DNA of 64,000 bases from Thermotoga neapolitana DSM 4359. GTDB taxonomy: Bacteria; Thermotogota; Thermotogae; Thermotogales; Thermotogaceae. A program made the translations under genes and the position numbers. The stretch spans positions 1,024,729 through 1,088,728 of the forward strand of contig NC_011978.1 in assembly GCF_000018945.1 (NCBI RefSeq). Reading direction: 5' to 3'. Of the stretch, positions 12,253 through 20,263 are shown piece by piece (positions within the stretch are counted from its first letter, which is position 1; every line of letters starts with the position of its first letter). The notes beneath the pieces are model-generated. The model had not been told where the DNA came from. It saw nothing but the letters and a program-made list of their open reading frames with translations, and did not search any database.

Positions 12253-17177
<4,925 letters not shown>

Positions 17178-18317
17178 CTAACAGTATTGAACGTTCACTA
17201 TTTTTCCTCTTTCCTGAAGGATGTGAGCGATATCCTTCACCAGTCTGAACTTCAGGGATATGTCGTGACTGAACAGTGGATTTTGATGAGCCGGGTTTAT
17301 CGCCCTTCCAACGAAGAAATTGATCTCATCGGCCTCCAGAAGGTTTTTCACGATGAATTTCGCTCCGTACCCCATCTCTTCGGATTGTCCCTCAAGGTAT
17401 CTGAACACCTGAGTCAGCGTGACGATCCCCTCTGTTAGAAGATCGATTCCCTCCATGTATCCAACGGGTGGAGAGTTCTCTGAGAACGTGTAAAGATCTA
17501 TCTCCACCTTCTTTCCAGTGACTCTTTCGAATATCTGACCCGTGGTACCACCACACACGATCTTTTTCCCGGGAAGACTCAGGAATTTTTTCACGTACTC
17601 TTCATCTTTTTCCTTCCTCTCAGGTGGTCCAACAAACAGGTTCAGAATGCGCTTTTCACGAAAGTTCAAACAGGCAACGAGTGTGTCGTCTCCCTTCACA
17701 TCTCTGTCCAGTTTCTCTGCAAGCCTCACAAAGTGTCTGACGATATCTTCGGGAGGAACATGGTTTCTGAGAAGGTGTCTTATTTCGCCCTCGATGTTTT
17801 CAACTCCAAAACCTAAGGGAAAAAGCTCCGTTCCCATTCCCGCCTGTGAGAGTCCATCTGTTGCAAGAAAAAGTATCATTCCTTCCTCAGGATGGAATTC
17901 CCAGATGGAAATTTGTCTTCCCTCTATGTTGATGCTCTTCTTTTCTGGATGAATCCGTCTGTTCTTCCTGAAAAGCATCACCACGGGAAACTCGTACTCC
18001 ACCACGGTACAGATTTCGTTCTTGAAATCACACACCACGGAGCACAGGTTGGAGTAACTGATTCCCCTCACCCTGCAAACAGGAAGCGTGGCGAGAATCG
18101 TTCTGAAGACATCTGTCACAGCAAGACCGTTCGCCAGCATGGTTGTTGCAATGGTTGAGGTAAGGGTTGAAAGAATGCTCGCCTTTATACCGCTTCCAAG
18201 TCCATCGGAGATGCTGACCACGATTTTTTCACTCTCTTTTTTCACCCTGATCGAGTCTCCACAGACTTCCTCACCCTTTTTGTTCTTCGAGGCGAAGAAC
18301 ACATCACAGGTCAGCAT
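17178..18317 (-). CDS. SpoIIE/PP2C-family protein phosphatase of the hydrogenase operon
   Basis: A 379-residue protein whose first half is a PP2C/SpoIIE serine phosphatase: VSISDGLGSGIKASILSTLT, MILFLATDGLSQAGM and GDDTLVAC supply the metal-binding aspartates. The second half (from about residue 215) is an extra domain with KIVCGGTTGQIFERVTGKK that I do not recognise as catalytic. The gene overlaps hydS by 14 bases and precedes hydC by three. Together with HydS it probably forms a signalling branch controlling hydrogenase level; its protein target is unknown. Confidence 0.8.
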   Translation of the reverse strand: MLTCDVFFASKNKKGEEVCGDSIRVKKESEKIVVSISDGLGSGIKASILSTLTSTIATTMLANGLAVTDVFRTILATLPVCRVRGISYSNLCSVVCDFKNEICTVVEYEFPVVMLFRKNRRIHPEKKSINIEGRQISIWEFHPEEGMILFLATDGLSQAGMGTELFPLGFGVENIEGEIRHLLRNHVPPEDIVRHFVRLAEKLDRDVKGDDTLVACLNFREKRILNLFVGPPERKEKDEEYVKKFLSLPGKKIVCGGTTGQIFERVTGKKVEIDLYTFSENSPPVGYMEGIDLLTEGIVTLTQVFRYLEGQSEEMGYGAKFIVKNLLEADEINFFVGRAINPAHQNPLFSHDISLKFRLVKDIAHILQERGKIVNVQYC

Positions 18318-19869
18318 CGTTTCCCCCCATGAACATCTTCAGTTCCAGGAAACTGCTCTTTGTCTCTGCAATCGATTCACCGAGAATACCGGCTATTTCC
18401 TGAGCGATTCTCATCTGTTTGTTCAGCATCTCCTCGACCTTTTTGAGCGTCTCCTGTTTCAGTCTGTTGAGTTCTTCGTCTTTTAACTTCTCCTGGGTGA
18501 CATCCACAAGCATGAGAACCTCTTCTCCTTCCTCGAGTGAAAATCTCTTCACGAAGAAGAATCTTTTATCGTCAAGTGACAGCATGTTCCCCACCATGTT
18601 CATCGCTTTTGTCAGTATTTCCGGGTCACTTCCTGCCAGATCTCCCGCCAGCTTGTTTCTGTAGATCACCTTTCCTTCCTTAAGAACGAAGACGGCGTTG
18701 GGAGACTCTTCGACAACCCTGTAACTGGATGACCTCACCAGATCCAGAAGGTACACAAAGCACATCTCCTTTTCTGCCTTTCCAAGGACGACCGCTTTCG
18801 CTTTCTCACGGCACGAATCGTATCCGCAGGCACCACAGTTCAGTTCCTTTTTTGGGTCGTCTTTTCCGGTCGACACGAGAACTTTTTTGATCTCCTCTTC
18901 AGGAACGTCTACACTTTTGGATCTGTTCCTGAAGGGCCTGAATGTTTCTATTTCGAAGAAATCTATCTTCGGTTCTTCTGGAAGCTTCTTTTGCCACTCA
19001 AGGATCCTGTCTTTTCCTGCACCCTTCTTTTTCATCACGGGGCCGTTCAGACAGCTTCCATAGCAGGCAGATGCCTCGATGAAAACATTTCTGTATTCGT
19101 CGATTCGGGAAAAGACTTTCATCAGGTTTTCTATCCCTTCCACCACCATCTTTTTCTCCCAGGGGATGGAGACGGTGTAGTTGATTCCATCCGTTGTCGG
19201 GAAAAATCTTGCCCTGCTTGGATACGGAGGATCGGGGAGTGTCTCTTTTGCCTGTGTTTCATCGATGATTTCTTCGAGTTCTTCGAACGTGAGGACGATA
19301 TCCACGAGGCTGCTCTCTTCTTTCTTTGCTATACAGGGCCCCACGAAGACAACAGGAAAGTCTCCATAGCGCTTTTTCAGAAACTTTGCGTGGGCCATGA
19401 GAGGGGAGTCAACCGGTGTCAGATACTTCAGAACATGCGGGAAGTGTTTTTCTGCAAGGTTTACGACCACAGGACACGCCGCTGTCACAACGGGGGCATC
19501 ACTTTTTTCAAAGACCTCGGTGTACCTTCTTGAGACGATCTCTGCCCCAACGGCCGTTTCCTGAACGACCATGGCTCCCATCTTTTTGAGGGATCCAATC
19601 GCCTTCAGTGGATTTTCGAAGTAGGCAAAAAACGAAGGTGCGATGGAAGCAAGAAACGGTTTTTGAAGATTCAAAAGTTTCTCCGTGTCTTTTCTGTAGA
19701 TTCTTGCACTCTGGGGACAGACCTCCAGACACGTTCCACAGAATATGCACTCTTCCACCACCACGGTGGATTTACCGGATCTGAAAGAAACCGCCTTGAC
19801 AGGACAGTTTCTCAGACACTTGTAACAGTACCTGCAATCCGTTTCTTTTGAGAATATAAGTTCAGGCAC
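18304..19869 (-). CDS. hydS: Putative sensory [FeFe]-hydrogenase with PAS domain (HydS)
   Basis: A 521-residue hydrogenase-like protein with two N-terminal [4Fe-4S] motifs (CRYCYKCLRNCPVKAV; CIFCGTCLEVCPQSA), an H-cluster domain, a further cluster domain (CGACGYDSC) and a PAS domain from about residue 395. The active-site loops differ from HydA. L1 reads TAACPVV, keeping the cluster ligand but replacing the proton-transfer cysteine with Ala. L2 reads GPCIAKKEE and L3 ACYGSCLNGP. Such changes are known from T. maritima HydS, a putative H2 sensor of low activity. It is co-transcribed with a phosphatase, fitting a sensor role. Confidence 0.9.
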   Translation of the reverse strand: MPELIFSKETDCRYCYKCLRNCPVKAVSFRSGKSTVVVEECIFCGTCLEVCPQSARIYRKDTEKLLNLQKPFLASIAPSFFAYFENPLKAIGSLKKMGAMVVQETAVGAEIVSRRYTEVFEKSDAPVVTAACPVVVNLAEKHFPHVLKYLTPVDSPLMAHAKFLKKRYGDFPVVFVGPCIAKKEESSLVDIVLTFEELEEIIDETQAKETLPDPPYPSRARFFPTTDGINYTVSIPWEKKMVVEGIENLMKVFSRIDEYRNVFIEASACYGSCLNGPVMKKKGAGKDRILEWQKKLPEEPKIDFFEIETFRPFRNRSKSVDVPEEEIKKVLVSTGKDDPKKELNCGACGYDSCREKAKAVVLGKAEKEMCFVYLLDLVRSSSYRVVEESPNAVFVLKEGKVIYRNKLAGDLAGSDPEILTKAMNMVGNMLSLDDKRFFFVKRFSLEEGEEVLMLVDVTQEKLKDEELNRLKQETLKKVEEMLNKQMRIAQEIAGILGESIAETKSSFLELKMFMGGNDADL

Positions 19870-20089
19870 TCTGAAGCACCTTCTTTACCAGTTCCTCCAC
19901 GTTTTCAGGGGACACCCCTGTGAACAGACGCCCGTCTATTTCAACACAGATTCCCTGAGAACACCTTCCAAAGCAGAGAGAACCGTAGAGTTTGAAGTTG
20001 TAGTCCTTCTGAAGTTCCCTGAGTTTTTCAACTACCCGGTAGGAACCTTTCAGGTAACAGGAACTTCCCATACAAACCCGGATTGTCAT
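19862..20089 (-). CDS. Small [2Fe-2S] thioredoxin-like ferredoxin
   Basis: A 75-residue protein similar to the C-terminal [2Fe-2S] domain of HydA and to HydC. It has VCMGSSCYLKGSY and SLCFGRCSQGICVEIDG, giving the C-x4-C ... C-x3-C pattern. It overlaps the hydS start by eight bases and is the first gene of the operon. It probably delivers electrons to or from HydS or the hydrogenase; no partner is proven by sequence. Confidence 0.85.
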   Translation of the reverse strand: MTIRVCMGSSCYLKGSYRVVEKLRELQKDYNFKLYGSLCFGRCSQGICVEIDGRLFTGVSPENVEELVKKVLQSA

Positions 20090-20125: not shown

Positions 20126-20263
20126 TTATATTTTTCACTATTTTTCGACAAAAGTCAAGGGAGTACACCATGTTGTTACTGTATTCACAAGAAAAGTAAA
20201 CACCGCGCGCTTCAGATTTTTAATCTTTATGAAAAGCAATAGAAATATATGATTGTCAAAATG

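Follow-up and report, generated by a model that had tools for sequence, protein, structure and literature searches.

Signalling through a group C [FeFe] hydrogenase, a PAS domain and a Ser/Thr phosphatase was already proposed for Ruminococcus albus, whose cluster of AdhE, hydrogenase and group C sensor dropped 111-fold when the organism was grown together with an H2 consumer (PMC6776011). In Thermoanaerobacterium saccharolyticum, deletion of hfsA or hfsB raised ethanol as well as adhE transcripts (2- to 3-fold), and a high ethanol yield required wild-type hfsC, encoding a phosphatase, and hfsD (PMC5707799). The sensor HydS of Thermotoga maritima has been produced and studied biochemically (PMC10055695, PMC11376134). 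The switch helices of the phosphatase SpoIIE move to a new position when it dimerises through a regulatory helix (PMC5468089). We analysed a stretch of 64,000 nucleotides (the window) of the 1,884,562-base genome of Thermotoga neapolitana DSM 4359 (NC_011978.1, positions 1,024,729 to 1,088,728), in which genes for a small ferredoxin, a HydS and a PPM phosphatase precede those of an electron-bifurcating hydrogenase. The locus belongs to this known kind; what is new is a cassette centred on the C-terminal tail of the sensor and independent of the hydrogenase.

The gene run, all on the minus strand, reads ferredoxin, HydS, phosphatase, HydC, HydB, HydA, Rex. HydS overlaps the ferredoxin gene by 8 nucleotides and the phosphatase gene by 14, and 3 nucleotides separate the phosphatase gene from that of HydC. 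This arrangement agrees with the first-pass annotation, which had reported a HydS gene following a small ferredoxin, overlapping a SpoIIE-type phosphatase gene and sharing a gene run with the hydrogenase. The parts of the cassette are as follows.

19862-20089, minus strand: thioredoxin-like [2Fe-2S] ferredoxin of 75 amino acids, first gene of the cassette (PF01257, E 6e-10; cysteines spaced CX4C...CX3C).
18304-19869, minus strand: HydS, group C (M2f) putative sensory [FeFe] hydrogenase of 521 amino acids, GTG start.
19705-19848, minus strand: HydS residues 8-55, 2x[4Fe-4S] ferredoxin-like domain (Fer4_10, E 5.6e-8 at residues 8-52).
19039-19659, minus strand: HydS residues 71-277, H-cluster domain with L1 motif TAACP including Ala131 (PF02906, Fe_hyd_lg_C, E 1.4e-37).
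18760-18843, minus strand: HydS residues 343-370, CX2CX4CX16C [4Fe-4S] motif (PF04060, E 3e-10).
18475-18738, minus strand: HydS residues 378-465, PAS domain, from alignment to PAS relatives recognised by Pfam.
18334-18462, minus strand: HydS residues 470-512, conserved C-terminal tail and proposed output element, core KQMxxAQEIAxxLGE(S/T)xAETK.
17178-18317, minus strand: PPM (SpoIIE-fold) Ser/Thr phosphatase of 379 amino acids (PF07228, E 7e-13; fold model and PDB matches).
17652-18317, minus strand: phosphatase residues 1-222, PPM catalytic domain (fold model, VIA-align).
17181-17651, minus strand: phosphatase residues 223-379, conserved C-terminal domain with GPP, CGGTT, TEG and INP motifs (alignment and model).

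The tail stands out in conservation and in its linkage to the phosphatase. When 18 sensors were aligned, 11 columns proved invariant or nearly so, 8 of them within the tail; columns of the H-cluster domain cannot score as invariant there, 8 of the 18 rows being without that domain. Mean pairwise identity was 57% for the tail (97 sequences), 41% for the phosphatase (96), 37% for the H-cluster domain (57) and 27% for PAS (95). Residues Q485, Q490, A493, L496, G497 and E498 are each found in 96 or 97 of the 97 tails, position 499 is occupied by Thr (81) or Ser (14), and position 503 by Thr (90) or Ser (2). In 100 loci with 101 phosphatases, a profile of HydS residues 470-512 placed a tail immediately upstream of 98; the three others sit at contig edges, with 75, 0 and 55 bases upstream. 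These 100 loci comprise 20 chosen Thermotogota regions, about half of them picked as divergent, and the best 80 of 584 confirmed places. One locus (L134) duplicates another (L116); it is counted in the 98 of 101 and in the tallies of 99 tail proteins and 56 HydS given below, and was dropped from the phosphatase tree, the identity comparison, the 79-locus neighbourhood scan and the ferredoxin tallies. The tree also omits a locus with a frameshifted HydS (L129) and the three contig-edge loci, and the identity comparison omits L129.

Whole-genome searches of 20 chosen genomes with the tail gave 18 hits at E <= 6.1e-6, all of them in phosphatase loci. By hand reading of the neighbours, 17 lie directly upstream of the phosphatase and one lies a gene further, beside a split HydS. 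A single weak hit (E 0.0035) fell outside phosphatase loci, and the four phosphatase-free genomes among the 20 yielded none. Against PDB sequences the tail profile matched 11 at E up to 1, of which one, 8vd6 ('CAP REPEAT', E 9e-7), was below 0.1; no stretch of it passed alone, and we take the match to be a putative repeat artefact.

The domains that precede the tail are not constant. Among 99 tail proteins, 58 carry an H-cluster domain (57 with PAS, one without), 38 consist of PAS and tail without an H-cluster domain, and three show only iron-sulfur motifs, PAS and tail; these three are the frameshifted gene of L129 and two genes that start at contig ends (L155, L179). One of the 38 (L186) is a protein of 766 amino acids with sCACHE, HAMP, receiver, weakly scored PAS and tail. 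On a short-search tree of the phosphatases, with 29 of 93 inner branches open, the H-cluster versus PAS-only label needs at least five changes, and the starred branches force at least three for PAS-only versus the rest. Of the 89 tail genes with 350 bp or more of upstream sequence, 74 are immediately preceded by a small CX4C...CX3C ferredoxin gene, recognised by cysteine spacing and size, which is present also where the H-cluster domain is absent (29 of 33 with as much upstream sequence). Because 38 of 99 tail proteins are without a hydrogenase domain, the conserved unit consists of tail and phosphatase, in most cases together with the ferredoxin, and has an exchangeable input. The earlier proposal of ferredoxin as electron input, HydS as H2 sensor and phosphatase as output fits the gene order and the conservation and largely coincides with the R. 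albus model (PMC6776011); the output module does not require its H2 sensor, as those 38 proteins show. Genome G085 has two cassettes on opposite strands, one with an H-cluster domain and one PAS-only, separated by about 2.6 kb (L116, 4914-7662 and 10219-11867).

Linkage in other Thermotogales had been named as a check on the first reading, and it was found. The phosphatase occurs in 47 of 103 Thermotogota genomes. In 40 of the 47 the gene immediately upstream, on the same strand, gives a HydS hit; HydS is split in one of these (G095) and frameshifted in another (G091). In six, HydS is replaced by a PAS and tail protein of about 169 amino acids without an H-cluster domain (L114, L115, L117-L120), and in one (G007) HydS and phosphatase are on different contigs. 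In the split case, from the same genus as the window (L113), a PAS and tail protein and a protein of H-cluster domain, iron-sulfur motif and tail both precede the phosphatase, and both halves carry the tail. In the frameshifted case, also of the same genus, HydS falls into frames of 301 and 230 amino acids (L129, 7767-9331) and the phosphatase and HydABC frames are intact; this may be a sequencing error or a recently broken sensor.

HydS of the window reads, in order, 2x[4Fe-4S], H-cluster domain, CX2CX4CX16C motif, PAS and tail. The H-cluster ligand cysteines C132, C179, C269 and C273 are present, Ala131 in TAACP occupies the position of the proton-transfer cysteine of HydA, L2 is GPCIAKK versus MPCTAKK in HydA, and L3 (ACYGSCLNGP) is unlike that of HydA, all as first described. 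Among relatives the ligands are kept almost throughout (C132 in 56 of 56 with two more gapped, C179 and C269 in 58 of 58, C273 in 57 of 58). The proton-transfer position is Ala in 19, Cys in 19, Ser in 14 and another residue in four of 56 aligned HydS. Since 19 of the 56 retain Cys, its loss appears common in HydS and not family-defining. The PAS domain, also part of the earlier description, gave no direct Pfam match at E 0.01 in the window protein, and is supported by alignment of residues 378-465 with standalone PAS and tail relatives that Pfam recognises (PAS_9, best E 2.7e-12). With its ligand cysteines, the CX2CX4CX16C motif between H-cluster domain and PAS, and PAS by alignment, HydS has the features of group C (M2f). 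In the cell it may serve as an H2 sensor.

The AlphaFold model of the phosphatase, from a 17-sequence alignment, had a predicted local distance difference test (pLDDT) score of 89.6. Its PPM fold was matched best by 3pu9 (VIA-align Z 23.1, root-mean-square deviation (rmsd) 3.1, 216 residues aligned), and SpoIIE (5ucg) gave Z 22.4, rmsd 3.0 and 215 aligned; over the full model, only residues 1-222 were covered by at least one fifth of the rows. D21, D38, G39, D154, G155, D210 and D211, which we take to be the metal and catalytic-site residues of the family, are each identical in 96 of 96 phosphatases, that of the window included. The protein is not the sporulation protein SpoIIE proper (TIGR02865, 24.4 bits versus an equivalog cut-off of 490.8). 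It has no N-terminal regulatory domain, the first strand of the catalytic domain starting at residue 2. Two helices, alpha1 (residues 44-62) and alpha2 (67-77), occupy the place of the SpoIIE switch helices. Mean column conservation is 0.72 for alpha1, 0.62 for alpha2 and its loop, and 0.97 for the active-site motif beside alpha1; elsewhere in the PPM domain it is 0.50 (residues 1-37), 0.48 (89-170) and 0.43 (171-222). The C-terminal domain has near-invariant GPP, GGTT, TEG and N341 and no Pfam match at E 0.01. Folded alone without an alignment it reached pLDDT 61, and its best PDB match was a chain of Escherichia coli complex I (E 0.011). This domain may bind a ligand.

The 79 phosphatase loci scanned for neighbours span 13 named phyla. 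Another [FeFe] hydrogenase is encoded in 40, HoxH in 10 and AdhE in 10 (8 of these also with [FeFe]); 27 have none of these, and in 17 of the 27 the sequence on one or both sides of the phosphatase is shorter than 8.9 kb. A hydrogenase protein cluster of '90 loci' and a ferredoxin cluster of '78 loci' mix related families and were not used. Ten of 16 cyanobacterial loci have hoxH on the strand of the phosphatase, 1.0-3.4 kb away from it, and the usual gene order there is hoxU-hoxY-hoxH, ferredoxin, PAS-tail, phosphatase. Of 194 cyanobacterial genomes, 57 encode HoxH and 15 the phosphatase, the latter without exception in genomes that also have HoxH (Fisher p 2.4e-9, without correction for kinship). 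Both genes share a strand and lie no more than 1.3 kb apart in 13 of these 15; in another the distance is 4.3 kb, and the last has them on separate contigs, distances likewise read by hand. In the accessible text of one report, the gene table of the Lyngbya majuscula hox region holds no PAS or phosphatase gene (PMC2674450). In 11 loci, drawn from four phyla and including L114 of Thermotogota, a bifunctional adhE shares the strand of the phosphatase at a distance of 0.8-3.0 kb; five of the 11 are close relatives within Clostridia. Assignment was by length: in a cluster of 15 AdhE-like proteins, 11 were taken as bifunctional (at least 650 amino acids) and four, of 381-413 amino acids, as plain Fe-ADH.

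We think it fairly probable that the tail in this cassette relays an exchangeable redox or H2 input to the phosphatase in trans; for contact, switch, sign and substrate we infer the following. Ferredoxin, sensor with output tail and PPM phosphatase would form a three-gene signalling cassette ahead of the hydrogenase that it probably regulates. Redox state or H2 would be sensed at the N-terminal, exchangeable end of the sensor, which in this HydS comprises the H-cluster, [4Fe-4S] clusters and PAS. The signal would pass to the C-terminal tail, which would contact the separate phosphatase in trans, most likely at alpha1 and alpha2. Because a phosphatase without an N-terminal regulatory domain pairs with the tail of its neighbour, the tail may do in trans what the SpoIIE regulatory helix does in cis. 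The phosphatase would then dephosphorylate a putative Ser/Thr phosphoprotein and so shift hydrogenase expression or activity, together with AdhE in ethanol producers. As to sign, we favour a sensor that restrains the phosphatase while free of H2 and releases it upon H2 or reduction, because the T. saccharolyticum hfs and R. albus co-culture data both fit restraint until H2 rises.

Several points weigh against this reading. T. thermosaccharolyticum without hfsABCD reached a high-ethanol phenotype upon overexpression of hfsD alone (PMC11837493); since hfsD alone suffices, this output does not strictly depend on the phosphatase. Deletion of hfsC was moreover reported to lower hfsD expression slightly (PMC5707799). 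The conservation of alpha1 may partly mirror the adjoining active-site motif. No fusion of tail and phosphatase was seen among the loci examined, the candidates L196 and L201 being out-of-frame reads or extensions. A linked substrate gene was not found either: relatives of the STAS, RsbW, DRTGG and CBS-HATPase proteins of this genome occur in none of the 79 loci (tblastn, more than 60 bits), which leaves the anti-sigma and anti-anti-sigma targets suggested at first without neighbourhood support. Finally, because 10 of the 79 loci have no [FeFe] hydrogenase, HoxH or AdhE despite at least 8.9 kb on both sides, one of them with a HydB/HoxF relative, linkage of the cassette to hydrogenases appears common but not universal. 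For the broadest form of the proposal we see about even chances: a widespread cassette, independent of hydrogenase class, of ferredoxin, interchangeable redox or H2 sensor with near-invariant tail, and tail-gated PPM phosphatase. It would control how fermentation electrons are disposed of through hydrogenase and AdhE, in lineages ranging from Thermotogota and Bacillota, with [FeFe] enzymes, to Cyanobacteria, with [NiFe] Hox; the tail would be the universal in-trans switch and H2 sensing by the H-cluster one of several inputs.

The tail could also be a substrate and not a switch. A kinase would then phosphorylate the Ser/Thr residues of LGE(S/T)xAETK, the phosphatase would remove the phosphate, and phosphorylation would set the state of the sensor. 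Ser or Thr is kept at 499 (95 of 97) and 503 (92 of 97), and some Clostridia encode an APH/protein-kinase-like protein between adhE and the cassette. That kinase, however, has no match in the window's genome, and the near-invariant residues are spread across the tail in a manner more interface-like than phosphosite-like, so that we regard this explanation as unlikely. Classical partner switching, in which the phosphatase acts on a STAS anti-anti-sigma factor antagonised by an RsbW-like kinase, both encoded elsewhere, strikes us as similarly doubtful. The genome does encode two STAS proteins that pass the family cut-off (L011, L012), an RsbW-like protein of the HATPase_c_2 type (L003) and, between DRTGG genes, a CBS-HATPase_c_2 protein (L018), and the CBS-HATPase occurs in 46 of 47 phosphatase-bearing versus 35 of 56 other Thermotogota genomes, a comparison not corrected for kinship. 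Yet no relative of these proteins is found in the 79 loci, and a second SpoIIE-family phosphatase of the genome (L001/L019), with a family score of 171 bits versus 52 for that of the window, could serve those STAS proteins. Control might instead act on thiols of the phosphatase itself, with the ferredoxin addressing Cys19, Cys81 and Cys255 and HydS a mere electron conduit. Conservation reaches 98% for Cys19 and 94% for Cys81 among 96 phosphatases and at least 90% for Cys255 among 17, and the frequent ferredoxin gene (74 of 89) would suit such a role; the stricter conservation and the exclusivity of the tail would nonetheless be left unexplained, and we hold this to be quite improbable. That HydS is a low-activity hydrogenase without a signalling role and the phosphatase an unrelated passenger of the operon is hardly credible to us: the activities of TmHydS and TamHydS are very low but real (PMC11376134), whereas the linkage of tail and phosphatase across the 13 phyla, often without an H-cluster domain, and the phenotypes of the hfsB mutant (PMC5707799) speak against it.

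Some of these candidate partners deserve a record of their own. About 110 kb beyond the window, genes for an RseC-like protein, DRTGG, CBS-HATPase_c_2, DRTGG and a PHP-like protein stand in a row (L018, 5199-7895; RseC and PHP assigned by eye), and the CBS-HATPase occurs in 81 of 103 Thermotogota genomes. We had assumed that a DRTGG/CBS-HATPase cluster lies beside the phosphatase in Clostridia; it was not found in the 79 loci, and the L018 cluster, rejected as a linked partner, is kept only as a weak candidate. A gene for a STAS anti-anti-sigma-like protein (L020, 5010-5390) ends about 1.3 kb before the window starts, with neighbours that look by eye like aspS and cmk. The clostridial APH/protein-kinase-like gene is flanked by adhE and the ferredoxin-HydS-phosphatase genes (L199, 6273-7022; L203, L204, L206 and L210), with Pfam run for L199 and L206 only. 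The kinase possibly opposes the phosphatase in those Clostridia. It was rejected as the opposing kinase of the window's genome, where it has no match; three of 103 Thermotogota genomes have one, none of them of the window's genus.

Downstream of the cassette, the run continues with the bifurcating hydrogenase and its neighbour.

16680-17174, minus strand: HydC (NuoE-like) of the electron-bifurcating hydrogenase.
14807-16687, minus strand: HydB (NuoF-like).
12857-14794, minus strand: HydA, catalytic [FeFe] hydrogenase subunit, L1 motif TSCCP.
12253-12906, minus strand: Rex redox repressor (NF003996, 297.7 bits versus a cut-off of 138).

The rex gene, with its GTG start as listed, overlaps the end of hydA. 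Upstream of the run that contains rex, an imperfect palindrome (TTGTTACTGTATTCACAA) lies at 20173-20190, which we take to resemble Rex boxes. We rejected that reading: the pattern is near chance, with 6 found in the window (at most one mismatch) versus 3.2 expected.

The tail would give the signal output of putative H2-sensing [FeFe] hydrogenases a precise, mutable element, usable with purified T. maritima HydS. The linkage to adhE in four phyla offers an explanation for the change in ethanol yield upon removal of hfsB in biofuel bacteria. In cyanobacteria, the position of the cassette within hox operons points to a regulator of the bidirectional [NiFe] hydrogenase; in the literature searched, which mostly lacked subscription papers, neither such a regulator nor the tail, its exclusivity, the optional H-cluster domain or the hox-operon cassette was found described.

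Among the closest known systems is that of T. maritima, whose HydS (group C/M2f) is like the window protein in domains, operon position and Ser267 at the M497 position (PMC10055695), and whose TM1420-TM1422 form a sensory set ahead of TM1424-TM1426 (PMC3561251). The word 'phosphatase' is absent from the main text of the T. maritima HydS paper, and in its accessible parts no description of the tail was seen (PMC10055695). The hfsABCD genes of Thermoanaerobacterium (PMC5707799, PMC11837493) and the R. albus cluster (PMC6776011) likewise combine a PAS-bearing HydS-like sensor, a Ser/Thr phosphatase and a hydrogenase, with H2 or ethanol phenotypes. Their neighbours are a ferredoxin-linked hydrogenase, with AdhE in R. 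albus, whereas those in the window are the bifurcating HydABC and Rex. A putative sensory [FeFe] hydrogenase also precedes a bifurcating hydrogenase in Thermoanaerobacter mathranii, where HydS is of group D (M2e) and has no PAS (PMC8163306). Ralstonia HoxABCJ, an H2-sensing [NiFe] system, also pairs a hydrogenase-like sensor with a PAS-bearing partner, but HoxJ is a kinase and the partner here a PPM phosphatase (PMC5707799, PMC8163306). With SpoIIE and RsbU (PMC5468089, PMC11418112) the window phosphatase shares the PPM fold, the catalytic-site residues and helices at the switch position. Unlike them, it has no N-terminal regulatory domain and an extra, conserved C-terminal domain, and its control element apparently resides on a separate protein.

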